This document shows positions 4,311 through 47,598 of a stretch of 64,000 nt of DNA, in pieces. Numbering within the stretch: the first letter of the stretch is position 1; each line of letters starts with the position of its first letter. Under the pieces are notes generated by a model that was given only the letters and a program-made list of their open reading frames with translations, ran no database searches and was not told the DNA's origin. Both the position numbers and the translations under genes were made by a program. The stretch is from Ruania alba (GTDB lineage Bacteria > Actinomycetota > Actinomycetes > Actinomycetales > Beutenbergiaceae): contig NZ_FNTX01000001.1 in the NCBI RefSeq assembly GCF_900105765.1, forward strand, positions 1,894,387 to 1,958,386, read 5' to 3'.

Positions 4311-5231
4311 TTATCGATCTCCATCAGCAGTAGGAATCTTGTCGAACAGGCTCGCTGCCAACCCGAGGCCACCTGGCACGCGTTGGGCGACGAGCACCCA
4401 GAGCAGCGAGGTCGTCAAGGTGTCGCTGGCGCGCCCGGCGAAGAAGTCGGTCCATGTCAGCCCCTCCCGGATCCCGGTGAAGATGCTGATCTCTGAGCGG
4501 TCGGCGAGTACCGAGTCCGGGTCGCCGGTGATGGCCACGGTGTGCGCGGAGTTCTGCTGCGCACGGTCACAGAAGTCGAGTCCGACCTTGTCGTTTCCGC
4601 TGCGGGAGAGAATGAGCGCCACGTCACCGGGGCCCATCATGCTGGCCAGTACCTGTGAGGTGACGGCACCGTCGTGGAACCAGACCGGCAGACCGATCCG
4701 GAGAAGCCGCATGTACAGCTCGGACACGGCCACCGAGTCCGCCCACTCGCCGTGCAGGTGGATGCGCCGAGCGGAAGCGATCCAGTCCGCGGCCTGCACC
4801 ACCAGATCGACGTCGATGGCGCCCATAGCCGTACGCGCCGCGCGCTGCTGGTTGGCAGCCAGGACCTCCAAGACGGCCTTCGGACCGTCTTCGGGCAGGA
4901 TCTCGTCACCGATGTCCCGGTGCCAGCCCGCTTCCATCTCGCGCCCGTGCTCGGTGGCGATCGCGGCGCGCATGGCGGGAAACCCGGCGAAGCCGAGATA
5001 GGCCGCCAATCGGCTCAGACTCGCGGGGGAAACATCGGCCGACCGTGCCAGACCGGTGATGGAGGACTCGCCGACCTCACCAGGATGGTCGACGATGTAC
5101 TGCGCGCTCCGGGCCATCGTCCGTTTCAGTCGCGGTAGCGCCTCTCGAAGAGCGTGCAAGGGGCTTGGCCCATAGTCGACATCCGCGACATGCTGATCGT
5201 CCGCACTCTCCGTACCCTCCCGATCTGTCAC
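4311..5231 (-). CDS. MurR/RpiR-family transcriptional regulator
   Basis: The protein has an N-terminal RpiR-type helix-turn-helix (about residues 45-80, with the sequence VSPASLSRLAAYLG) and a C-terminal SIS sugar-phosphate isomerase-like domain (about 130-270) that would sense a phosphorylated sugar. The GTG at 5231 is chosen because AAGGAGT lies just upstream; a longer in-frame ATG at 5270 has no such site. It sits inside the operon, 45 bases after the binding-protein gene and three bases before the FAD enzyme gene. It probably controls this operon; the 15-bp palindrome upstream of the first permease is a candidate operator. Confidence 0.9.
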   Translation of the reverse strand: MTDREGTESADDQHVADVDYGPSPLHALREALPRLKRTMARSAQYIVDHPGEVGESSITGLARSADVSPASLSRLAAYLGFAGFPAMRAAIATEHGREMEAGWHRDIGDEILPEDGPKAVLEVLAANQQRAARTAMGAIDVDLVVQAADWIASARRIHLHGEWADSVAVSELYMRLLRIGLPVWFHDGAVTSQVLASMMGPGDVALILSRSGNDKVGLDFCDRAQQNSAHTVAITGDPDSVLADRSEISIFTGIREGLTWTDFFAGRASDTLTTSLLWVLVAQRVPGGLGLAASLFDKIPTADGDR

Positions 5232-5276
5232 GTACCTACTCCTTCTTGCCTCGATGTTCCAGTGAGCCACACACCA

Positions 5277-6608
5277 TCAGGAGATCAATCCGTTCACCGC
5301 TTCGCCAGCCGCTCGCATGCCTTCCTCGGGCGTCTGGTTGCCGAGCAGCACTGCCTGGACACTGTCGGCAACCGCGGTCTCCATCTGCGCGTAGGCGGTG
5401 AACTCCCAGAAGGGGCTGGGTGTGGCGGTGGCCGTGATGCTCTCGGTGAAGGCGGAGAGGAACTCGTCCTCCTGCACGTCCGAACTCTCGAGCCCTTCCA
5501 TCGTCGCGGGAGGGTTGCTCGATGCTCCGAAGTAGCCGAGGATCGCCTCCGGGTCCGAGGTGAGCCACTGCGCGAACTCGGCCCCTGAGGTGGACTCCTC
5601 GCCGTCGGTCACGACGAGAATGTGTCCCCACGCCAGTGCTTGCGGGACATCGCCGTCGTCGTGCACCGGGCGCGCCAGCGGGATCATCTTCGACCGAATC
5701 TCGGCGTCCGGTGAGTTGGTCACCACGATCGCCGAGCCGATCGGCGCATCGTCGTAGTAGGCCGTGCGCCCCTGGCTGAAGAGGTTGCGCGCCGCGCTGC
5801 GCTCGATGTCAGGAGCGATGAGACCGTCGGTGTAGAGCTTCTTGTACCAGGTCATCGCCTCGATGGAGGCCTCGTCACCCACCGTGCAGCGCCCGTCCTC
5901 GACCACGGCCGATCCGAAGGTTTGCATCCAGACGATGAAGTCCTTCAGCTGGGCGACCTCGGTGGAGGCCGCGTACGGGACGATGTCGCTGCCCAGGCTC
6001 TTCACCTCCCGCAGCACCTCCTCGAACTCCGTCAGCGTGCTCGGTACGAAGTCGACGCCGGCCTGCTCCAGGAGTTCGGAGTTCCCGATCAGTCCGATCG
6101 CCGCCGTACTCCACGGGATCCCGTACTGCACACCATCGAACTGGCCCGTCCCCAAGGACGCGTCGGTGTAGCCGACGTCGCTGGTGTACGCGGACAGATC
6201 CACCAGCGTGCCAGTGGCAACCATGGGCGCCAGCCAGGCGATGTCCAGGTGAGCGACGCCGGAAAGCTCGCCGCCACGGCTCTGCAGGATCATCTGGTTC
6301 AGAGCCTCGTTGTAGGCATAGCTCGACGCGTTGATGCTGATGCCCTCGTCGGAGGCGTAGTCCGCTACCGTCTGCTCCAGCCACTCCTTCGGCGGGTCCT
6401 CAGACAATGCGAACGAGGTGAAGGTGAAGTCCTGGCCGCCCTCACCCGAGGGCTCGCCGGCCTCCCCGGGCTCCGTACCTTCGCCGTCGGAGCAGGCCGT
6501 CAGGCCCAACCCGCCAAGGCCGAGAGCACCGCCGAGGCCGAGCAGGTTCCGGCGGCTCAGCCCCGTGGCAACAGGACGGCGGTGGTTCGTGCTGGTCATG
6601 CGGTTCAT
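5277..6608 (-). CDS. ABC transporter substrate-binding lipoprotein (family 1, sugar type)
   Basis: This 443-residue periplasm-facing lipoprotein has SRRNLLGLGG at residues 18-27, which resembles a twin-arginine signal, and a lipobox LTAC with the lipidated cysteine at residue 39. The mature part has the two-lobed pattern of carbohydrate-binding proteins (SBP_bac_1). The start is ATG 6608, preceded by AAGGAG seven bases upstream; the open frame extends further 5' without a signal sequence. It lies downstream of both permease genes rather than first, which is less usual. The ligand is unknown. Confidence 0.92.
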   Translation of the reverse strand: MNRMTSTNHRRPVATGLSRRNLLGLGGALGLGGLGLTACSDGEGTEPGEAGEPSGEGGQDFTFTSFALSEDPPKEWLEQTVADYASDEGISINASSYAYNEALNQMILQSRGGELSGVAHLDIAWLAPMVATGTLVDLSAYTSDVGYTDASLGTGQFDGVQYGIPWSTAAIGLIGNSELLEQAGVDFVPSTLTEFEEVLREVKSLGSDIVPYAASTEVAQLKDFIVWMQTFGSAVVEDGRCTVGDEASIEAMTWYKKLYTDGLIAPDIERSAARNLFSQGRTAYYDDAPIGSAIVVTNSPDAEIRSKMIPLARPVHDDGDVPQALAWGHILVVTDGEESTSGAEFAQWLTSDPEAILGYFGASSNPPATMEGLESSDVQEDEFLSAFTESITATATPSPFWEFTAYAQMETAVADSVQAVLLGNQTPEEGMRAAGEAVNGLIS

Positions 6609-37222: not shown

Positions 37223-38446
37223 ATGACGCACTTCTTCTCCCCGGACCGGATCGCGATGGGTGTCGGTATCGAGGACACGTTCATCCCGCAGGAGCGGGTG
37301 GGCCATCGCAAGCTGGACGAGTACGAGCTCACCCAGCATTACCAGTACTGGCGTGAGGACCTGAACCTGGCGAGGGAGGCCGGGGCGGAGTTCATCCGGT
37401 GGGGCATCCCGTGGTTCCAGGTGGAGCCTCGCCCGGGGGAGTTCGACTTCTCATGGATCGACGAGGTGGCCGCCCACATGCAGGAGATCGGGCTGCACTG
37501 CGTGGTGGACCTGCTGCACTACGGGACACCGCTGTGGCTGGACAACTCGTTCATCAATGCCAAGTACCCGGAGTACTTCGCCCGGTATGCCGGGGCGGTG
37601 GCCGAGCGTTACCGGGGCGTGTTCACGTCGTTCACGCCGGCGAACGAGCCGTTGGTGAACGCCCAGTGGTGCGGCCGCGACGGCGGCTGGCCCCCGTACC
37701 TGACCGGTGAGGACGGGTTCGTCAAGGTCGTGACGGCGGTGGCTGAGGGGATGTCGCGGGCTCAGGAGGCTATCCATGCGGTGGCACCGGAGGCGGAGAT
37801 CGTGTTCGTGGACGCGGGGTTCCGGTATGCCGGTGACCACTTCCCGGGGCACTCGCGCGAGCACCTGGAGGAGTGGCGGTTCATCGCGACGGATCTGGTG
37901 CTTGGCCGGGTGGATGAGGAGCACTCGCTGTTCGGACACCTGCGTGAGCATGGGGTGACGGACGAGAAACTGGCCTGGTTCCGGGAGAACGCGAAGACCC
38001 CGGACGTGATGGGCGTGAACTACTACCCCGGGTTCACGACGCTGTCCTTCGACTCGGACGGTGCCGAGGTGCCCGGCGAAGGCGGGGTCGAGGGGCTCGT
38101 GGAGCTGGTGCGGGCCTACCACGAGCGCTACGGGTTCCCGATCGCGATCACCGAGACCTCACGGAACGAATCACCCGAGGCGAAGATCCAGTGGCTGCAG
38201 CAGTCGTTGGCGGCGTTGGAGGAGCTGCGTGCCGACGGCGTCCTGATCACCGGGTACACGTGGTTCCCGTTCTTCTCGTTGATCGACTGGCTGTACCGGT
38301 ACGACACCGACAGCGCCGACAACCACTGGAACCACCTGGGGTTGCTGGAGTTGAGGAGGACGGCGGGGGGCGTGTTGGAGCGGGTGCCGAACGCGGCGCT
38401 GGGAGCATTCAGCGACGTGGCCAACAGGGCTGCACATACGGTATGA
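37223..38446 (+). CDS. glycoside hydrolase family 1-like beta-glycosidase
   Basis: This 407-residue cytoplasmic protein is a (beta/alpha)8 barrel with the clan A acid/base motif NEP (E142, in TPANEP) and a nucleophile in ITETS (E311), consistent with retaining family-1 beta-glycosidases. It is shorter than typical family-1 enzymes and may be a divergent member. ATG 37223 is used; an in-frame TTG at 37214 lies closer to a weak AGGA. It would cleave the sugar imported by the preceding transporter. It is the last gene before base composition changes. Confidence 0.85.
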   Translation: MTHFFSPDRIAMGVGIEDTFIPQERVGHRKLDEYELTQHYQYWREDLNLAREAGAEFIRWGIPWFQVEPRPGEFDFSWIDEVAAHMQEIGLHCVVDLLHYGTPLWLDNSFINAKYPEYFARYAGAVAERYRGVFTSFTPANEPLVNAQWCGRDGGWPPYLTGEDGFVKVVTAVAEGMSRAQEAIHAVAPEAEIVFVDAGFRYAGDHFPGHSREHLEEWRFIATDLVLGRVDEEHSLFGHLREHGVTDEKLAWFRENAKTPDVMGVNYYPGFTTLSFDSDGAEVPGEGGVEGLVELVRAYHERYGFPIAITETSRNESPEAKIQWLQQSLAALEELRADGVLITGYTWFPFFSLIDWLYRYDTDSADNHWNHLGLLELRRTAGGVLERVPNAALGAFSDVANRAAHTV

Positions 38447-38629
38447 AAACAAGGGATCTGCACGCCTTAAACCGGCCACCAGCGGCGCCCCGAACGCAAT
38501 TGGCCTGTAGTAGAGTTCGCCATATACGTAACCGATCAGTCCGCAAATACTATCCAGATCAGCGCCGCACGAGCACGACGCTCTCGATGAAGTCGCCCAA
38601 AGACCCAGCAACTCAGCAGCAGTTCGCAG

Positions 38630-39496
38630 TCACCAAGACTCCGAGTCGGCAATCACTCGACGCTCGCTCTCGACGCGCAATATTAGATCCGAGATACTCT
38701 CAACTAGGTCTGAATGCTCGTTCTCGGGAGAGTACCGTAGTAGCTTCAAATTCATATTCTTGCGAATACTGTCATCGAGGTGCGGCGAAACTTCCGAACG
38801 AGGACTAGTCATATAGTGGGGCGGACTATTCGGATGCGAATGATGATAGTTTTCCAGGAATAGTCGAAGGTCGGGATCATTCAGGCTCGTACCGACGAAC
38901 AGAAATGTATGAGTCAATATCAACGAACCCATCAACTCCATGAAGCGAGCATGCTCAGATCGAAGGCGGGCATATTCACTCCGAGTGAAGACCATTCTAC
39001 TCGGCTCGGACACTGATCCATGCATCTTGAGAACGAATCGATAGCTCCTGCGCAAGAAGAGAGGAAGATCCGCATCATAGTATTGCTTCACCACGGTTGT
39101 ACCATTGGTCTCAGCTGAAACAAAGTTGTCGTACACAGCGTCGAAATTAGGGGTTAGAACGATGGGAAGATCAAGCTCGTGAAGTCGTCTGTGCAAACGA
39201 CTCGGGCGAAACTTTGGTGCAACGAACTCCTGCTTCAGCAACTCTGGCCATGACTCATCTAGAGACGCTTTAAGCAGCTCGCACGCACCGAGGAGGTCTC
39301 CCAAATCTATCAATTGCTTCACAGTGTCTGACGGAACCCGCTTTCCGAGACGACGCCTTGCACGCAATAGGAACTCCTCCCACTGCGGCGGCCTCCTATC
39401 ATCTTCTGACGCAGCAGATGCCGAGACTCCGGCGCCCAAGTAAAGTACAGCTCGTCGCCGAGCAATATCGCCCACCAGCTCATCGGGCCACTTCAT
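38630..39496 (-). CDS. SIR2-domain protein, candidate NAD-consuming effector
   Basis: This 288-residue protein is a SIR2-like (SIR2_2 type) domain: GAGVS at 21-25, the TPNFD segment with N117, KMHGS with H159 as the likely catalytic histidine, and VGTSLNDPD at 201-209. It has no membrane segment and no zinc-finger cysteines of true deacetylases. In known phage-defence systems (Thoeris ThsA, DSR, SIR2-HerA, SIR2-Argonaute) such domains deplete NAD+. Its ATG overlaps the stop of the ParA gene as ATGA, so the two are made together. GC is clearly lower than in the flanking clusters, a sign of transfer. Confidence 0.87.
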   Translation of the reverse strand: MKWPDELVGDIARRRAVLYLGAGVSASAASEDDRRPPQWEEFLLRARRRLGKRVPSDTVKQLIDLGDLLGACELLKASLDESWPELLKQEFVAPKFRPSRLHRRLHELDLPIVLTPNFDAVYDNFVSAETNGTTVVKQYYDADLPLFLRRSYRFVLKMHGSVSEPSRMVFTRSEYARLRSEHARFMELMGSLILTHTFLFVGTSLNDPDLRLFLENYHHSHPNSPPHYMTSPRSEVSPHLDDSIRKNMNLKLLRYSPENEHSDLVESISDLILRVESERRVIADSESW

Positions 39497-40488
39497 CGCG
39501 AACCTTCAAGATTCGAAAGCAACTTCGTCGAAATCTTGCCAATAATCTGATCGAACTCGCGGACTTTACTGAAATGGGCTCCAACAACTCCATCGCTGCC
39601 AGAAAGCTCGAATATGGGCTTCCGGCTAGACTGGCTCAAAGGAACCAAGGAATGAAGGGTCGGAATCGACCCAAGATGGAGATCTTCATCCGCCATATCT
39701 GGCATTGACTCGTCGAGCAGATTCTCTTTGATAACCTCTGGAACACGGCGCATGATCCGCTCGAAAGCCTTAACCGGACGCGGCTGCCCATCGGAATCAC
39801 GCTTGAATGTATACTGCTGGGTAACATATCCTCCAAAAGACAAGCGCCACCGCGGATCCCCCACTTCGAGCTCCTCTTTCGGATCGACAATTGCATCCAG
39901 GCCTCGTTGATATCGCAGCTTCCAAGTTCGAAGCGATTTCGATATATTCTCAATCGCCTTGAGACTAAAAATGTCCAGGGACATCGGCGTGATGAAGTAG
40001 TCGCAACTCAATAATACGGCACGGTTGATTGAACCAAGCGAAGGACCCATGTCGAAGAATACGAAATCATACTCCTCGCACAGCTCGAGCAGGTGCGAGA
40101 ATAGGAGTGTGGTTCGGAGTCCACGTACATCTCCCGCGGTTCCCTGTACCCAGTCTGTTGCGAGAAGATCCTCCGTCAATCCAAGTTCTGGATCGCCGAC
40201 CAGCAGATCAATTCCAAAGTTGGAACTCCGTTCAGGTCGAAGAACCTTCGAAAATCCCTTCCCACGAGAAAGTGGCTGAACGACGCTGTACACCGTGAAC
40301 TTGCCGCGGCTATAGAAGGCCTCTACTGTCTCATCATCGAATAGACTCTGCGTCGCGTTGCACTGCGGATCGGCGTCGATCACTAGCACCTTCTTATTGT
40401 GCCTCGACGCTAGGTGCGCCGCCAGATTACAAAGAAGAGTGGTCTTACCCACGCCCCCCTTATTGTTGAACACTGCAATTGACTTCAA
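39493..40488 (-). CDS. ParA/MinD-type P-loop ATPase paired with SIR2 protein
   Basis: This 331-residue protein starts with MKSIAVFNNKGGVGKTT, the deviant Walker A of ParA (residues 10-17), followed by DADPQ at 38-42 and a Walker B region with D146 in FFDMGPS. The start is a TTG at 40488 with GGAGG six bases upstream; a longer TTG start at 40527 lacks a site. There is no ParB gene or centromere-like repeat near, so plasmid partition is unlikely. The C-terminal 110 residues (from about 220) are not recognisable and may sense or bind the partner. It is coupled to the SIR2 gene. Confidence 0.88.
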   Translation of the reverse strand: MKSIAVFNNKGGVGKTTLLCNLAAHLASRHNKKVLVIDADPQCNATQSLFDDETVEAFYSRGKFTVYSVVQPLSRGKGFSKVLRPERSSNFGIDLLVGDPELGLTEDLLATDWVQGTAGDVRGLRTTLLFSHLLELCEEYDFVFFDMGPSLGSINRAVLLSCDYFITPMSLDIFSLKAIENISKSLRTWKLRYQRGLDAIVDPKEELEVGDPRWRLSFGGYVTQQYTFKRDSDGQPRPVKAFERIMRRVPEVIKENLLDESMPDMADEDLHLGSIPTLHSLVPLSQSSRKPIFELSGSDGVVGAHFSKVREFDQIIGKISTKLLSNLEGSR

Positions 40489-40654
40489 TTTTTGCCTCCA
40501 CTGGCTCGGTTCGTGCCGTGCGTACAAACCCTTACTGGCTCGACGCAGTTACGTTTGAAACTGCGAGCATCGCTATTCAACGAATTCGCGCGCGCTGCGG
40601 ACCGCCGACTTGTATATAGGAACCAAAACACATATCTCAGCAATTTCATTGCCA

Positions 40655-43600
40655 TCATGATTGATTCACTAGCCGCAAGGGCGGTAGCGATCCCACGAGG
40701 TGCACAGTCTCAACGGACACTGCTGTCACCTGGGCAATCAAGTCCAAGATATAGCGTGGGTTGCCTACCTCGCGGGCCCAATCGTTCGGGTCATTGACGA
40801 TGCCGGAGGACTTGTCGGTACGTATCTGGTAGCGGTCGAGGATCCAGTCGAGGGCGGTGCGCGTGCCGAGGACGTACTGGTGCGCATCCTCGGGTATCCC
40901 GGTGACCGTGATCGTCGGGGAGTAGACGATCACGGAGCGGTCCTTGTTCCGAACCGAGCCCGCATAGGTCAGCTTCCGCACTCGGTAGGCGTCAAAGGCT
41001 TCCTCGGTCGTTTCACCGGCGAGGCACGCAGGTTCGCCGGTGACCGTCAGCGGATACGGCTCGGCTGACGCATAGTTGATGTGGAGGTCGAGCAGGCGCT
41101 GGCCTGCGTCGGCGAAGGGAGCGAAATCGTCGGCTGCGATGCGTGGGATGTGTGGGAGGGAGCGTTTGAGGTCTGCGGCGAATCGTTCGCGGTAGTCGGT
41201 CGAGTGCAGCAGGCCGTAGACGAAGGCGAAGATCTCGTCCTTGGTGACGTCGTTGCCGTACCAGCGTCGGTAGGTCGCGAGCGTGACATCGGTGATGTTG
41301 TCGATCCGCCGGTAACCGTCGATGACGTCGGCATCCAGTTCTAGCGTTCCGTCGTCGACTCGTTCGTACGTGTATCGAGCGAAGAACTGGCTCGGCCCCG
41401 AGCCCCAGAATGAAAGATCAGGGACCGTGCCGACAGCGAGGGTGCTGAACTGCTTATCAGACCCAGGCGCCACCACTACGAAGCCGTAGTTGGGGTGGTT
41501 CGGCGTCGGGAACATCGACGGCATGCGATAGACCATGTCGTTGAGTTCGGCGTCGAACCACGCTGCTTGCTTGGTGAAGGGCCGGTAGAGACCGACGTAC
41601 TGTCGCTCGGGTCGCACCTCGTAGCGGCGTCCGCGTGCCAGTTGTGTGCGATCGGCACGGTTCCAGCTGAACCGGGTGGGGTCGTTGTTGATGAAGTCGC
41701 CGACGTGCTTCTTAGGGTCGGCAATGCGGTGCTCGTCTACGAACTGCTCGAACCGGTCGACCTCGGTGTTGTAGAAGTCGACCATGCGGGAGACGTTGGC
41801 GGTGAGCTTCTCGGTCGAGGCGTTGTAGACCCAGGCGTCGCGGCCACTCGATAGACCTCGCGAGTAGGTGGCGAAGATCGGGGTTCCGGTGCGGTCGCCG
41901 AGGGGTTGGTAGGTGTCGAAGGCGTCGGTGCGTTGGTTGATCCAGTCTCCGGCGTCGTTGGGGGTGATGTCCTGCCAGTCGAGCTGCTCGATCGTGGACT
42001 TGGCGACTGTGTCGAGTTTCTGTTCGCGGGTGAGGTAGTCGCCAACGTCGCGATAGCGGATTGTCGCCTTGCCCGCGGTGTTGGTGGGGTCTTTGACGAG
42101 GAAGGTCACGGCGACGGTGTTCCGGGATCCGGAGCCGAAGATCTTGCCGCCTTCCTTGCGGGACTGTTCGCCGCTGGTGCGTTGGTTGCCGCGCAGGTTG
42201 TAGACATAGATGTCGGTGCACTCCTCGGCGAGGGTCTGACGCAGGCCGTCGGCGGTGTTGGCGTCGATGAAGCCGCCGTTGGTGACGAACCCGATGACAC
42301 CGGCGTCGCCGATGCGGGTCAGGGCCCAGCGGATGGCGCGCACGTAGGAGTCGTAGAGGGAGTTCTTGTTCGTCGCTCGCGACCGGGCGGCGAAGGTCTC
42401 CTCGATGGCGCGGTCGAGGCTGGGGTATTTGAGGTTGGCGTTGTTGTCGTTGCCGGAGGTCTGCCCTTTGGAGTAGGGCGGGTTGCCGACGATGACGCGG
42501 ATGTCGAGGCGGCGTTGGGCGCTGACGCGGTCGTTGTTGGTGGTGAAGACGGCTTGGTCGTCGAGTTCGTCGTCCTCGGTCATCTGGAAGGTGTCGGTGA
42601 GGACGATCCCGCCGAACGGCTCCCCCGGCACAACGGGCGCAGTCTCCGCCGTCGGCTCATTCTCGTTGCCGGCGTGGTCGCGGCGGGCCTGATGGTAGGT
42701 GGTCTCGATGTTGATGGCGGCGATGTAGTAGGCGAGCAGCATGATCTCGTTGGCGTGCAGCTCGCCGACGTACTTGCGCGCCAGGTCATGCGGGGAGATC
42801 AGCCCCGAGCCGATCAACCGGGTCAGGAAGGTGCCAGTGCCGGTGAACGGGTCCAGCACGTGCACGCCCTCATCGGTCAGACCCTTGCCGAAGTGCGCCC
42901 TGGACAGGTGGTCAACGGAGCGGAGAATGAAGTCGACCACTTCGACCGGGGTGTAGACGATGCCGAGGGCGTCGGCGGCCTTGGGGAAGGCGAGGGAGAA
43001 GAACCGCTCGTACAGGTCGGCGATGATGCGCTGCTTGCCCTGCGCGTTGTCGATGCCCGCCGCCCGGGCCCGCACGGACTCATAGAACCCTTCCAGGGAT
43101 TCGGTCTCGGACTCCAGCTGGGCGCCCTCGAGGGTCTCCAGCATCGTCTGCATCACCCGCGAGACGGGGTTGTTGGCCGCGAAGTCGTAGTCGGTGAACA
43201 GAGCGTCGAAGACCGGTTTGGTGATCAGGTGCTGAGAGAGCATCTGTACCGCGTCCTCGCGGCTGATGCCCTCGTTCAGGTTGTGGCGAAGCGCGGTGTG
43301 GAACTCGGCGAACTCCTCGGCCGCGTGGCCGGTGGCAATGATGTCCAGCAACCGGGTGCGATGGCGTTCGGCGATGTCGGCGACGTCCTTGGCCCAGTCC
43401 TCCCAGTACCGGCGCGAGCCGACCTTGCGCACGATCTTCGCGTACAACGCATCCTGGTACTCGCCCAACGAGGCCAGGTCGAACACGCCCTGGGCGCCCC
43501 GATCGGGAGAGGCGGAGTCGCCCTCGAGGTCCTCGTCGTCGCCGCCGACGCCGATGATCTGGATCCGGTCATCGCGGCCGGTGTTCAGGTCGATCTTGTT

Positions 43601-45511
43601 GATCATCGACTCGAACCGTTCATCGTGAGCGCGCAGGGCCTGCAGCACCTCCCAGACGACCCGGTAGCGGTCGTTGTCGGCCAGCGCTTCCTCCGGGCTG
43701 ACCCCTGCCGGGATCCCGATCGGCAGGATGATGTAGCCGTACCGCTTGCCCGGGGCGCGGCGCATCACCCGCCCCACCGACTGCACCACGTCCACCTCGG
43801 ACTTGCGCGGGTTGAGGAACATCACCGCATCCAGCGCCGGCACGTCCACCCCCTCCGACAGGCACCGGGCATTGGACAGCACCCGGGCCTCGTCCTCACC
43901 GGCCGGCTCCTTCAGCCAATCCAGCGCGGCCGTGCGCTGCATGATGTTCATCGAACCGTCCACGTGCCGGACCCCGGCCGACAGCGGATCCCGGTCACCG
44001 TCATCGCCCACTCCGGACAGGCGCGCGTAGTCCGAGGTCACCGACGCGAACAGTTCACTGAACGCCCGGGAAGACTTGATGTCGCGGGCGAACGCGACCG
44101 CCCGGCGCATCGGCTCCGGATCCGAGGCGAAGTCGCCGTCGGTGTTGCCACGCTTGTCCAGCCCGTTCCAGCACCCCACGATCCGCGCCGCATCATCCAG
44201 GTTCAACTCACCGTGCGCGGAGAAATCCCCCTGGAACGTGCGCGAGACCGCACCCTCATCGACCGCGAGGACAAGCACCCGGTAATCGGTCAACAGATTC
44301 AGCTCCACCGCCTCCCCGAACCCAAGCCGATGGAACTCCGGCCCGAACAGATCCTCGTCATCCATCGAGGCCAGCACCACCTGCTCCTGACCGGCCTTCG
44401 TCTTGGACGCATCACCGTAGATGCGGGGAGTGGCGGTCATGTACAGGCGCTTGGCCGCGCGGATGTAGTCGGCGTTGTGCACCCGGACGAACGCCGACTC
44501 CTCCTGCCCTGCCAGCGTCGCGCCCGTGGTGCGATGCGCCTCGTCGCAGATCACCAGATCGAACTCCCCCAACCCCTGCTGCTGGGCCTGATGGACCACA
44601 TCGATCGACTGATACGTCGCCAACACAACCGTCAGCCGGCCCGACTCCCGATCCGGATCACTCGCAGCCGCTGCCAGCTTCACGGGGTCCGTGGTGGCTG
44701 GGATCGGAAGGTCCACCACCGATACGTCCTCACCCGCCCGTGCGCCGCCTCGGCCGACCTTGCCATCCGAGCACACCGCGAACGTGCGCAACGACTCCGC
44801 CGCCTCCATCGACCACTCCGTCAACGTCTGCGACAACAACGCGATCGAGGGCACCAAGAACAACACCCGCCCACCCAGGGGCACCTGGTCCTCGGCAATC
44901 TTCAAAGCGGTGAACGTCTTGCCCGTCCCGCAAGCCATCACCAGCTTGCCCCGGCCACTGGCCGTGAAACCGTCCCGCACCTCCTCCAGCGCCTTGCGCT
45001 GGTGCGGGCGCAGCTGCTTGCGCTCCTTCTGCTCCAACAACTCCGGGGTCTCGAAGGAGAACTGCTCCCAGTCGATCGAGGACTCGATGAAGTCGCTCAA
45101 CCCCATCCGCGAGACCGGCTTGGTCTGCTCGTGGATTGCCGCCTCCGCGTTCGGCCCCCACTCCAGCGCCGTCGAGACCACGATCCGCCGCGCGAACGGG
45201 TCCTTACCCGACTCCGAGAGGAACGAGTCGATGTGCGCCTTCGTCAACCTGGTCTGCGGGTCGTAAAATTTGCACTGGATCGCCACCAGCTCATCGCTCT
45301 CGCGCTCACGCGCCACCAGATCGATCCCCGCGTCCCGGCGTCCACCGTTGCCCGGCCACTCAGTCCACAGCCACACGTCCGCGAACCGGTCCGCCCACGA
45401 GACGTCCGCACGAAGGAACGCCTGCGTCAGCCGCTCGAACCTCGCGCCCTTGTCGGCCTCGGACGTCGAGGCGTAGTACAACTTGTCGAGGAGATCAGCA
45501 ACGGTCTTCAC
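40655..45511 (-). CDS. type ISP restriction-modification enzyme (single polypeptide)
   Basis: A 1618-residue protein with four parts in order. An Mrr-like nuclease (about 1-110) has D near 62 in DAGID and IQCK near 79. A superfamily 2 helicase/translocase (about 180-620) has CGTGKT near 194, DEAH near 322, TATPRIYG and QSVGRVMRR. An N6-adenine methyltransferase (about 840-1180) has DPFTGTGTF near 887 and NPPY near 1009. The C-terminal target-recognition region extends to the end. This is the LlaGI/LlaBIII architecture, which cuts DNA after translocation. The GTG at 45511 has AGGAT upstream and begins the conserved VKTVADLLDKL; an ATG at 45550 is possible. The gene is GC-rich, unlike its neighbours on both sides. 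Confidence 0.92.
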   Translation of the reverse strand: MKTVADLLDKLYYASTSEADKGARFERLTQAFLRADVSWADRFADVWLWTEWPGNGGRRDAGIDLVARERESDELVAIQCKFYDPQTRLTKAHIDSFLSESGKDPFARRIVVSTALEWGPNAEAAIHEQTKPVSRMGLSDFIESSIDWEQFSFETPELLEQKERKQLRPHQRKALEEVRDGFTASGRGKLVMACGTGKTFTALKIAEDQVPLGGRVLFLVPSIALLSQTLTEWSMEAAESLRTFAVCSDGKVGRGGARAGEDVSVVDLPIPATTDPVKLAAAASDPDRESGRLTVVLATYQSIDVVHQAQQQGLGEFDLVICDEAHRTTGATLAGQEESAFVRVHNADYIRAAKRLYMTATPRIYGDASKTKAGQEQVVLASMDDEDLFGPEFHRLGFGEAVELNLLTDYRVLVLAVDEGAVSRTFQGDFSAHGELNLDDAARIVGCWNGLDKRGNTDGDFASDPEPMRRAVAFARDIKSSRAFSELFASVTSDYARLSGVGDDGDRDPLSAGVRHVDGSMNIMQRTAALDWLKEPAGEDEARVLSNARCLSEGVDVPALDAVMFLNPRKSEVDVVQSVGRVMRRAPGKRYGYIILPIGIPAGVSPEEALADNDRYRVVWEVLQALRAHDERFESMINKIDLNTGRDDRIQIIGVGGDDEDLEGDSASPDRGAQGVFDLASLGEYQDALYAKIVRKVGSRRYWEDWAKDVADIAERHRTRLLDIIATGHAAEEFAEFHTALRHNLNEGISREDAVQMLSQHLITKPVFDALFTDYDFAANNPVSRVMQTMLETLEGAQLESETESLEGFYESVRARAAGIDNAQGKQRIIADLYERFFSLAFPKAADALGIVYTPVEVVDFILRSVDHLSRAHFGKGLTDEGVHVLDPFTGTGTFLTRLIGSGLISPHDLARKYVGELHANEIMLLAYYIAAINIETTYHQARRDHAGNENEPTAETAPVVPGEPFGGIVLTDTFQMTEDDELDDQAVFTTNNDRVSAQRRLDIRVIVGNPPYSKGQTSGNDNNANLKYPSLDRAIEETFAARSRATNKNSLYDSYVRAIRWALTRIGDAGVIGFVTNGGFIDANTADGLRQTLAEECTDIYVYNLRGNQRTSGEQSRKEGGKIFGSGSRNTVAVTFLVKDPTNTAGKATIRYRDVGDYLTREQKLDTVAKSTIEQLDWQDITPNDAGDWINQRTDAFDTYQPLGDRTGTPIFATYSRGLSSGRDAWVYNASTEKLTANVSRMVDFYNTEVDRFEQFVDEHRIADPKKHVGDFINNDPTRFSWNRADRTQLARGRRYEVRPERQYVGLYRPFTKQAAWFDAELNDMVYRMPSMFPTPNHPNYGFVVVAPGSDKQFSTLAVGTVPDLSFWGSGPSQFFARYTYERVDDGTLELDADVIDGYRRIDNITDVTLATYRRWYGNDVTKDEIFAFVYGLLHSTDYRERFAADLKRSLPHIPRIAADDFAPFADAGQRLLDLHINYASAEPYPLTVTGEPACLAGETTEEAFDAYRVRKLTYAGSVRNKDRSVIVYSPTITVTGIPEDAHQYVLGTRTALDWILDRYQIRTDKSSGIVNDPNDWAREVGNPRYILDLIAQVTAVSVETVHLVGSLPPLRLVNQS

Positions 45512-45834
45512 AGGGCCATCCTGCCGTATAGGTCGCGGTACAGTGGTCATCTTTCGAACTTGTGCACCGCTGGCCACGATCCGACCCGAGATGGCCCCGA
45601 CTCAATGGGTCTCGCGACTGAACGCGACGCACGCCGACTCGCCACTTCCTTACTTCTTGGCGCGGGCGAGGCGTCGAACGGCGCCGTGCAGCACCCGTAT
45701 CCGAAGCAGGCCATGCACGTCGCTTGCGATCCTCGCTACTCAAAGGGCATTGAGATGATCACCCAAAGAACCGCCCAGCCATCTGCCATACTAAACCCAA
45801 GTCCAGCCGATCCTGCCACTGTTCCGGAGCATAG
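45512..45834. other. divergent intergenic region, no gene seen
   Basis: This 323-base stretch separates the divergent restriction enzyme and membrane-protein genes and must hold both promoters. I see no convincing -35/-10 pair, no RNA gene and no repeat in it. Confidence 0.5.
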
Positions 45835-47157
45835 ATGCCTGAAAATGATGACCTGTGGGAGCGTCTCAACTACCGCCCTGCGGCAGTCCCGCATTCCTCC
45901 GGATCCGACGAAGCGACCCAGGAGCAGGATGCCGCGGCAAAAAAGCGGCGCCGGCGTCGACAGTTTCGACTCCTGAAAATTGTGTCGGTCCTGGTATGGC
46001 TATATTCACTAGCGCGCATTTTTGTGGGAGATATTGATACATGGATCGCTGAGCGAACCGCCCCAGGCTACGCATGGATCCTGGATTATCGGTTCTTTAT
46101 CGCACTTGGGGTGACTAGCTTAGCCCTAATGATGTTTCGCAGGAAACATTTCTGGATCCCGCTCTACGTGACACTTTTCCCATTGATAGTTATATTTTGG
46201 ATCATACCTTCCGCGATCTATAAACGGCGCAGCATGTCGCTAGCCATTGGTGCAGTACACGCCATCACGGCGCTCGGTCGCACATTCAGGGCAAACTTCA
46301 CCCTGTTCACGGTATGCGCATTTTCAACTCTCGCAGTGACGTTGCCTGCGCCTCCATGGGTTGGATGGTCAGCGATCATTGCAGTCTTTACTGTTTGGAT
46401 GATCACACTTTACCGAGTGGTTTGCTATGCGTTCTCGCCCGGCAGCTTTGTTCAAACCCAGCGTTCGCTCATACAGAGAGTGCTGGATAGCGGCGTCGTT
46501 TGGCGCGTGGTGCAGTTCCCTAGCGAGGCTCGCGAGAACCGCGGCGAGGTTTTCACCGTTAGCGAGAGTCAGAGGATCGTTCAAGCTGCCGGATTCGGGT
46601 TCATTTCCTATCGAGTAGCGCACTACTGGGCAACGAAGCTGGATCGATACAGAAAAAGCGCCGCTTCCATCGCTTTCAGCGCTATCGCGATGGTCGGAGC
46701 AGCATTTCTTGGCGTCTACTTGTTCACCCTAATCAACCTTGCCGTGTGGTCGATCGACACCCAACAGTTTCAAGTCACCGGAGATCCAAACTTTCTTACG
46801 TTTGTGCGGTATTCGATCGCATCCATGTACGGGAGCGAGATTGCAGCCATCACCCCGAACGGCTCGATAGCAGCGGCCGCCAACATACTCGCCTGGGCCT
46901 CCGCAGGGCTAATCCTTGCGATGGTGATCGTATCGGTGGTCTTCGGGTATCGAAGCACTCGGGTCGACGAAGGAGCGTCGACCGAGATCGCAAAGCTACG
47001 CGACTCAACTAGGCACTTCGGCGGGCGACTTTCGGTGGAGTACCAGGTATCAATGGACGAGTTGGCAGATCGACTCAGATCTCTTGGATTCGATCTTCTC
47101 GGACTACTTGCTTACCTCTCTTCAATGGACGAAGACTGGTCAGAAAACGAGCCGTGA
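45835..47157 (+). CDS. multi-pass membrane protein with channel-like C-terminal half
   Basis: This 440-residue protein of unknown family has a charged N terminus (basic run KKRRRRRQ at 36-43) and hydrophobic segments near 45-65, 82-100, 105-128, 153-172 and 177-199. A cytoplasmic stretch follows (200-275), then a segment near 277-303, a short re-entrant-like stretch near 322-342 (YSIASMYGSEIAAITP) and a last segment at 345-371. The final part looks like a two-helix ion channel with pore loop, but the TVGYG filter is absent. GGAG precedes the ATG. Codon use is AT-rich like the ParA-SIR2 pair. It may be a membrane effector; that is inference. Confidence 0.75.
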   Translation: MPENDDLWERLNYRPAAVPHSSGSDEATQEQDAAAKKRRRRRQFRLLKIVSVLVWLYSLARIFVGDIDTWIAERTAPGYAWILDYRFFIALGVTSLALMMFRRKHFWIPLYVTLFPLIVIFWIIPSAIYKRRSMSLAIGAVHAITALGRTFRANFTLFTVCAFSTLAVTLPAPPWVGWSAIIAVFTVWMITLYRVVCYAFSPGSFVQTQRSLIQRVLDSGVVWRVVQFPSEARENRGEVFTVSESQRIVQAAGFGFISYRVAHYWATKLDRYRKSAASIAFSAIAMVGAAFLGVYLFTLINLAVWSIDTQQFQVTGDPNFLTFVRYSIASMYGSEIAAITPNGSIAAAANILAWASAGLILAMVIVSVVFGYRSTRVDEGASTEIAKLRDSTRHFGGRLSVEYQVSMDELADRLRSLGFDLLGLLAYLSSMDEDWSENEP

Positions 47158-47340
47158 TCTGCCCCGCCTGTTACACCGGACGCTTCGGCAGTATATCGAA
47201 ACTCTACATATCGGCCAGATCCCCTCGATGCCATCCCCGATGCTCTCCTAATTCTCGTGCCCAAAGGGACTCTACGGCAATGAAACCGTTGGACACTCTC
47301 CGCGATCTATGGCGCTCGACCTTCGTCGTGATCTGATGCC

Positions 47341-47598
47341 AAGACGCGGCATCGCTACGTCCAGGAACGTCCCGTCATCAAGCACAACAGTTCCTGCGCC
47401 GTCGGCTTCGGCAGAGCCGACGCGGTCGATGATCTCTTGGGCGCGCGCGCTTTCAGCCTCTGTTGGCCGAAAGGAATCCCAGATCACCGGCAACTGAGCC
47501 GGGTGGATGGCTGACCGCCCCAAAGATCCGAGCGCTTTGCCTGCTGCACAGCTGCGCGCCAGGCCTTCCACGTCCTTCACGTCGGCCCAGACGCTCAT
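47341..47598 (-). pseudogene. 3' remnant of a HpcH/HpaI (CitE-like) lyase gene
   Basis: The frame from an ATG at 47598 reads MSVWADVKD ... GRSAIHPAQLP ... DGAGTVVLDDGTFLD. By eye it matches residues of the C-terminal third of the intact CitE-like protein at 57999-58826 at most positions. Similarity stops near 47341 and the frame runs out at 47272 in unrelated sequence. About 190 N-terminal residues, including the barrel with the DLEDAV motif, are missing. It lies between the AT-rich islet and the Gfo/Idh gene, so it may mark a rearrangement end point. Confidence 0.85.

Follow-up and report, generated by a model that had tools for sequence, protein, structure and literature searches.

What is a ParA-type ATPase doing in front of, and overlapping with, a SIR2-domain gene? 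The question is raised by a stretch of 64,000 nucleotides (hereafter the window) from Ruania alba (RefSeq assembly GCF_900105765.1, contig NZ_FNTX01000001.1, positions 1,894,387 to 1,958,386), in which an original prediction, made from the letters alone, had proposed the two genes as a candidate defence system. We consider it probable that the pair is a two-gene abortive-type anti-phage system, not yet named in the sources searched, in which ParA controls SIR2. Among the suicide weapons of bacterial immunity, SIR2 enzymes that degrade nicotinamide adenine dinucleotide (NAD+), the SIR2 NADases, hold a major place, and the known systems rely on other kinds of sensor. If the proposal is correct, the partition-type ParA/MinD switch would gain an immune role, which might account for part of the ParB-less ParA genes on phages and plasmids, and the sister pairs, in which the partner is RelA/SpoT, Schlafen or HEPN, would suggest a family built on a modular plan. 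A natural copy in Escherichia coli prophages makes the pair directly testable.

Two overlapping genes and their domains

The first gene encodes a Pfam AAA_31 protein with the features of the ParA/MinD family, namely a deviant Walker A motif with its signature lysine (KGGVGKT, K10 and K15), D40 and the catalytic aspartate D146. The second encodes a SIR2_2 protein in which N117, D119 and H159 are all present, thus combining the fold with the catalytic asparagine and histidine of SIR2-type NADase effectors in general (Table 1). Their overlap as ATGA, already described in the original prediction, suggests translational coupling, and a second in-frame TTG upstream at 40527 is a possible alternative start of ParA. 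Both genes have a guanine-cytosine content of 0.51 compared with 0.66 across the window, in agreement with the earlier remark that they are AT-rich. In contrast, the C-terminal 110 residues of ParA, which had been taken as unassigned, are no orphan, as the protein is related over its whole length to PDB 3pg5, a solved but uncharacterised protein (E 6.6e-53 with the single sequence and 1.3e-96 with a profile).

PADLOC returned two weak matches for ParA (best 1e-6), and no NCBIfam model exceeded its cut-off among the best 25 of 33 models. The best PADLOC match of the SIR2 protein is the SIR2 part of ThsA (6.5e-22, ThsA residues 12-223 of 478), the Dsr2 model NF041819 of NCBIfam was reached only below threshold (26.1 bits against a cut-off of 1400 bits), and the SIR2 profile is closest to ThsA, 7uxt, DSR2, KomC and human FAM118B. 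Judged by these resemblances, the SIR2 protein is most likely an NADase.

Linkage of ParA and SIR2

The window ParA, aligned with six plasmid relatives, was used as the query against a one-genome-per-species collection and against viral contigs. The best 80 of at least 579 relatives in the genomes and the best 80 of 346 in the viral contigs were taken as loci (referred to below by L numbers), and ParA and SIR2 profiles were then run over all open reading frames (ORFs) of the loci kept. SIR2 lies directly downstream of ParA in 57/58 genomic and 21/24 viral loci with a ParA score of 7e-94 or better, and in the four exceptions (L062, L117, L125 and L135) the sequence ends at the edge of a contig or stretch; for L135, the missing end of ParA and the SIR2 gene are found on another piece of its contig, L237. 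ParAs scoring 2e-76 or worse have no SIR2 partner, and the score of L036, a decayed gut fragment, is 4e-74. Among the 57 genomic pairs, the SIR2 gene is frame-broken in L048 and L050 and leaves the contig after 35 residues in L082.

The linkage is also tight from the other side. A viral scan with a SIR2 alignment as the query yielded 23 loci, and ParA was found just upstream wherever the SIR2 score was below 1e-80 (20 loci). Of these 20, 19 are on contigs known from the ParA side and L229 alone is new; ParA is frame-broken in L229, possibly through a sequencing fault, and cut in L237. In the remaining three loci, which have no ParA, the SIR2 match is weak (7e-24 or worse) and falls in a longer ORF. 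On plasmids, SIR2 was found in eight records and is adjoined by ParA in each of them, while phage records gave no SIR2 match at 1e-10. Among records labelled as plasmid or phage, the pair was present in six of the first eight opened and in none of four others picked among distant relatives.

The search for adjacent ParA-SIR2 genes elsewhere, which the original prediction had called for, therefore found the adjacency again, far beyond chance, in 84 further loci that include near-copies. The distance from the ParA stop to the SIR2 start is between -17 and +16 nucleotides in 84/84 other pairs and exactly -4 in 40 (with starts chosen by script). N117, D119 and H159 of SIR2 are invariant in the 82 intact pairs (window included), as are D40 and D146 of ParA, and K10 and K15 are present in 81 with one gap. 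Further, the pairwise distances of ParA and SIR2 are correlated (r = 0.79; the highest value among 2000 permutations, which ignore relatedness, is 0.12). On this comparative sequence evidence, ParA and SIR2 form a genuine two-gene unit of long standing.

The 57 genomic pairs, several from metagenome-assembled genomes, are distributed over ten phyla according to record titles: Pseudomonadota (36), Bacillota (7), Actinomycetota (4), Bacteroidota (3), Planctomycetota (2) and five others with one each. The spread is rare and sporadic, with the ParA profile matching at 1e-70 in 1/396 sampled genomes of the host phylum, which is the host itself (five candidates scored per genome). This distribution bears on the function of SIR2. 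Enzymes of the SIR2 fold can deacetylate proteins, and the SIR2 protein could in principle be a housekeeping regulator that acts on ParA as a deacetylase or ADP-ribosyltransferase. However, such sporadic occurrence and a domain of the SIR2_2/ThsA/DSR2 type both speak against housekeeping, and we consider this explanation very unlikely.

Position in prophages and in the host genus

In E. coli, the pair occurs in 12 of 5426 complete genomes, with at least 99.8% identity to the reference copy; in strain 2014C-3307 it lies at 1903323-1905199. These copies were reached by a DNA search with the L060 pair, through 130 matching bases, and the L138 and L034 pairs gave no match as queries in the same search. 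In 12/12 copies (two of which were opened) the match spans the replication endonuclease, the pair and the portal of a P2-like prophage, that is, the gpA-gpQ interval, which is a hotspot of anti-phage systems in P2-like phages (PMC9122126). In other E. coli prophages, features annotated in this interval include retron St85, TIR, DprA, GmrSD, NotI, RES and AIPR with SIR2 (among the 25 and 60 records listed of 1342). Similarly, the viral pairs L121, L127, L128 and L141 lie at most 232 nucleotides from a P2-type portal, L127 and L128 having an identical layout and probably being near-copies. An integrase match at most 100 nucleotides upstream of the pair was found in L046, where it is weak (32% identity), in L060, and in the near-copies L122 and L124.

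A variable position is also evident in the host genus. Synteny of the window with all four congeners examined is lost at 38393-38401 and returns at 47349 in two of them. Inside this slot, congener L221 carries type I HsdM and HsdR, and congener L222 a ThsB-like protein (3.9e-37), type I methyltransferase and restriction proteins and an AAA defence-like protein. Congener L223 has a PDC-S37/Hhe-like protein 10 kilobases (kb) further on, which is not assignable to the slot because synteny did not resume in L223, and the single protein scanned in L224 had no match. In both settings, the E. coli prophages and the host genus, the hotspot position of the pair is clear. The ThsB-like genes in the slot of L222 were located at 4321-6103, with type I restriction-modification genes close by.

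A position in mobile elements might also fit an ordinary partition ATPase with SIR2 as an unrelated or regulatory neighbour. ParA belongs to the AAA_31/ParA family, some copies are on plasmids and prophages, and a putative plasmid partitioning system has been reported at the same hotspot in about one-quarter of P2-like phages (PMC9122126), so a ParA at the P2 hotspot need not mean defence; the word 'ParA' does not occur in the main text of that paper. Against this, the only ParB match in the host genome lies beside another ParA, on contig 2, and the Vibrio ponticus plasmid pVPon1 has its own ParA-ParB genes near the pair but separate from it. A ParB gene was one of the signs by which the original prediction would have failed, and the location of the host's match does not count against the prediction (parS sites were not searched for). 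As the SIR2 linkage is, in addition, exclusive within the clade and old, a partition role of the window ParA was rejected and we regard it as most improbable. ParA-like genes with no obvious partner were seen in Salmonella phage ST160 near the repressor (L225 2995-4068) and in Pf1 near the prophage end (L226 3073-4026).

Relation to known systems

The pair fits no system in PADLOC 2.0.0 or NCBIfam 20.0, as the original prediction had anticipated. No paper on a ParA-SIR2 pair was found among the titles and abstract starts listed in open-licence PubMed Central, and 'unnamed' holds for these sources only, because subscription papers and newer defence catalogues lie outside them. Passages of PMC9503650, PMC9519451 and PMC11559045 concern SIR2 with HerA or SIR2 alone and do not contain the whole word 'ParA'.

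Each of the described SIR2 systems resembles the pair in part. The SIR2 domain is closest to that of ThsA in Thoeris, but the protein is without the C-terminal half of ThsA, a SLOG domain (288 compared with 478 amino acids), and its partner is ParA rather than TIR; no ThsB-like protein was found among four window proteins scanned. SIR2-HerA (Nezha) likewise consists of two genes for a SIR2 protein and a P-loop ATPase, whereas the ATPase here is of the ParA/MinD type (AAA_31) with no HerA match in Pfam or PADLOC. DSR1 and DSR2 have a related SIR2 domain, yet they are single proteins of more than 1000 amino acids with a sensor part of their own. Kongming also has a stand-alone SIR2 protein (264 amino acids, solved as KomC), but its partner genes, KomA and KomB, were not seen and ParA stands in their place. 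Unlike in short Argonaute-SIR2 systems (SPARSA), the genes upstream of SIR2 are ParA and a type ISP enzyme, not Argonaute. Finally, the ParA shares the ATPase family and motifs of ParABS but differs in having a fixed SIR2 partner, no ParB nearby and a C-terminal region in common with 3pg5, where matches to Soj end near residue 190.

Proposed mechanism and main alternative

We propose that SIR2 may act as a stand-alone NADase effector that is silent in healthy cells. The ParA-family ATPase would bind SIR2 or govern its assembly, and an ATP-dependent ParA dimer, probably on DNA, could serve as the switch. Infection would then shift the state of ParA, so that SIR2 is released or assembled, and the enzyme would destroy NAD+, leaving the phage unable to finish. 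By analogy, a SIR2 dependent on an ATPase has a precedent in Nezha, where, according to PMC11559045, the HerA ATPase partner is required for SIR2 NADase activity. We infer the NADase activity, the binding between ParA and SIR2, the trigger and which partner holds which. The immune role is probable because ParA and SIR2 co-travel across distant bacteria and occupy anti-phage slots in some of them.

Several observations weigh against an immune role. Core genes flank many of the pairs, no report of phage challenge or NAD measurement of any member was found in the literature searched, no ParA-effector fusion was present among the ORFs of 171 loci, and the partitioning system reported at the P2 hotspot has already been mentioned. 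In addition, SIR2 is intact behind a frame-broken ParA in L229, and the opposite is seen in L048 and L050. Proximity to defence genes, on which the original prediction had staked part of its case, was assessed around the 57 genomic pairs with PADLOC matches at E 1e-20 in ORFs of at least 200 amino acids, near being within 5 kb and far beyond 5 kb. The near set comprised the 108 nearest ORFs of 279 (54/57 loci) and the far set 108 of 196 (49 loci). Among the matches listed, type II methyltransferases (4 near, 1 far) and type II endonucleases (2 and 0) were more frequent near the pair, whereas mad3 showed the reverse (1 and 5). One TIR effector and one type III methyltransferase were confined to the far list. 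As the lists give the best 25 of 44 near and the best 25 of 28 far families, and family members overlap, the near set does not clearly exceed the far set overall. That part of the prediction has a mixed outcome, with clear hotspot positions but no clear excess in the counts. The two-gene defence system as a whole is partly supported: the pair is linked, old, found in hotspots and without match among the systems of PADLOC and NCBIfam; that NAD+ is depleted, that ParA is the sensor and that infection activates the pair we likewise infer.

The main rival is a toxin-antitoxin or addiction module, in which a toxic SIR2 would be neutralised by ParA as its antitoxin and the module would mainly stabilise its carrier element, with phage defence secondary or absent. 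The regulator-first order of overlapping genes, the carriage on plasmids and prophages and the likeness of some sister partners (RelA/SpoT-type and HEPN) to growth-arrest toxins are all consistent with it. It accounts less well for the many copies among core genes, for the 12/12 E. coli copies in the gpA-gpQ defence slot and for the intact SIR2 of L229, subject to the possible sequencing fault. In addition, the SIR2 NADases described so far have, to our knowledge, a role in defence. We therefore judge addiction unlikely, although the defence and toxin-antitoxin versions may coincide.

Sister ParAs with other partners

Some relatives of the window ParA outside the SIR2-linked clade have other partners, and others have none recognised. 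In 20 viral loci a gene of about 225 amino acids with a RelA/SpoT domain lies downstream of ParA (e.g. L150 7041-7715); one protein was scanned in Pfam (8.2e-16), and conserved motifs over 18 aligned partners resemble those of what we take to be the synthetase type. In 19 loci of the first classification, a gene with Schlafen AlbA_2 and HATPase_c_4 domains lies just upstream of ParA (three proteins scanned in Pfam), and such Schlafen-ParA loci occur in Streptomyces and other bacteria (L101 8688-9992, L108 8796-9989, L114 8646-10004 and 21 more). Five loci (L157 1617-2300, L165, L178, L180 and L187) have ParA followed by a protein of 225 amino acids with DILGF, SDSI and RGGI motifs, which are presumably of the class III cyclase type, an assignment without database support: nothing significant was found in Pfam for two of the five members or in the PDB for one member and then a profile. 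On a Burkholderia glumae plasmid (L227 3995-5634), a ParA-like ATPase overlaps an annotated HEPN gene by one base. Among 24 further host-class loci (L005-L028), the Schlafen partner was seen in five, and the 1.5 kb flanks of the other 19 contain no partner of the four types.

A FastTree phylogeny was built from 166 ParAs (85 with SIR2, 20 with RelA/SpoT, 19 with Schlafen, 5 with the cyclase-like protein and 37 with none). On this tree the partner labels, four in all, change three times, the minimum, and eight times when 'none' is counted; the tree includes near-copies, and its long branches come together close to the RelA/SpoT clade. Regional similarity was calculated from up to 40 rows per partner class. 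The N-terminal 60 residues remain alike between classes (45-48%, compared with 61% within the SIR2 class), while residues 201-331 fall to 15-17% towards the RelA/SpoT and cyclase-like classes and to 22-28% towards the Schlafen class, against 37-46% within the SIR2 class. These values make a partner-specific C-terminal region possible; we go no further because residues 61-130 lose similarity too (21-28% between classes compared with 45% within the SIR2 class).

In a wider and more tentative reading, 3pg5-like ParAs would serve immunity in general as the sensor or switch, to which different lethal effectors can be attached (SIR2, a RelA/SpoT-type synthetase, Schlafen-AlbA_2, a HEPN RNase and a class III cyclase-like protein), a modular class that we found named nowhere. 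Such ParAs may detect phage takeover of the nucleoid through ATP-dependent DNA binding. We regard this class as conceivable but somewhat doubtful, and set its chances slightly lower because 19/24 further sister ParAs are without these partner types.

Neighbouring genes and features of the locus

The coordinates of the pair, its neighbours and the slot are given in Table 1.

Table 1. The ParA-SIR2 locus of Ruania alba, in positions of the window
Feature	Position	Strand	Evidence
SIR2_2 protein, predicted NADase effector, 288 amino acids	38630..39496	-	Pfam SIR2_2, E 2e-21
ParA/MinD-family ATPase, predicted sensor or regulator, 331 amino acids, TTG start	39493..40488	-	Pfam AAA_31, E 1.7e-31
ATGA stop/start overlap of ParA and SIR2	39493..39496	-	sequence
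Type ISP restriction-modification enzyme, neighbour, probably outside the pair	40655..45577	-	PADLOC PDLC03597, 2160 bits
440 amino acid protein in the variable slot, neighbour	45835..47157	+	without family match
Variable chromosomal slot holding the pair	38402..47348	.	synteny with congeners

The 440 amino acid neighbour had no Pfam match over the cut-off and none in PADLOC or NCBIfam. The type ISP enzyme, a neighbour correctly recognised in the original prediction, is on the same strand as the pair at a distance of 166 nucleotides, and the pair could be imagined as its accessory. However, with ORFs called by a simple script, no gene family is an immediate neighbour of the pair in more than about 5 of 85 loci, and the gene upstream of the pair in L037, the closest relative, is a different one. 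The type ISP enzyme was rejected as a functional third gene because upstream families do not recur beyond that number, and an accessory role seems to us exceedingly unlikely, even though a DNA N6/N4 methyltransferase was observed directly beside the pair in L034 (7860-8990), L093 (8826-10004), L084 (11927-13048) and, upstream, L136-L138.
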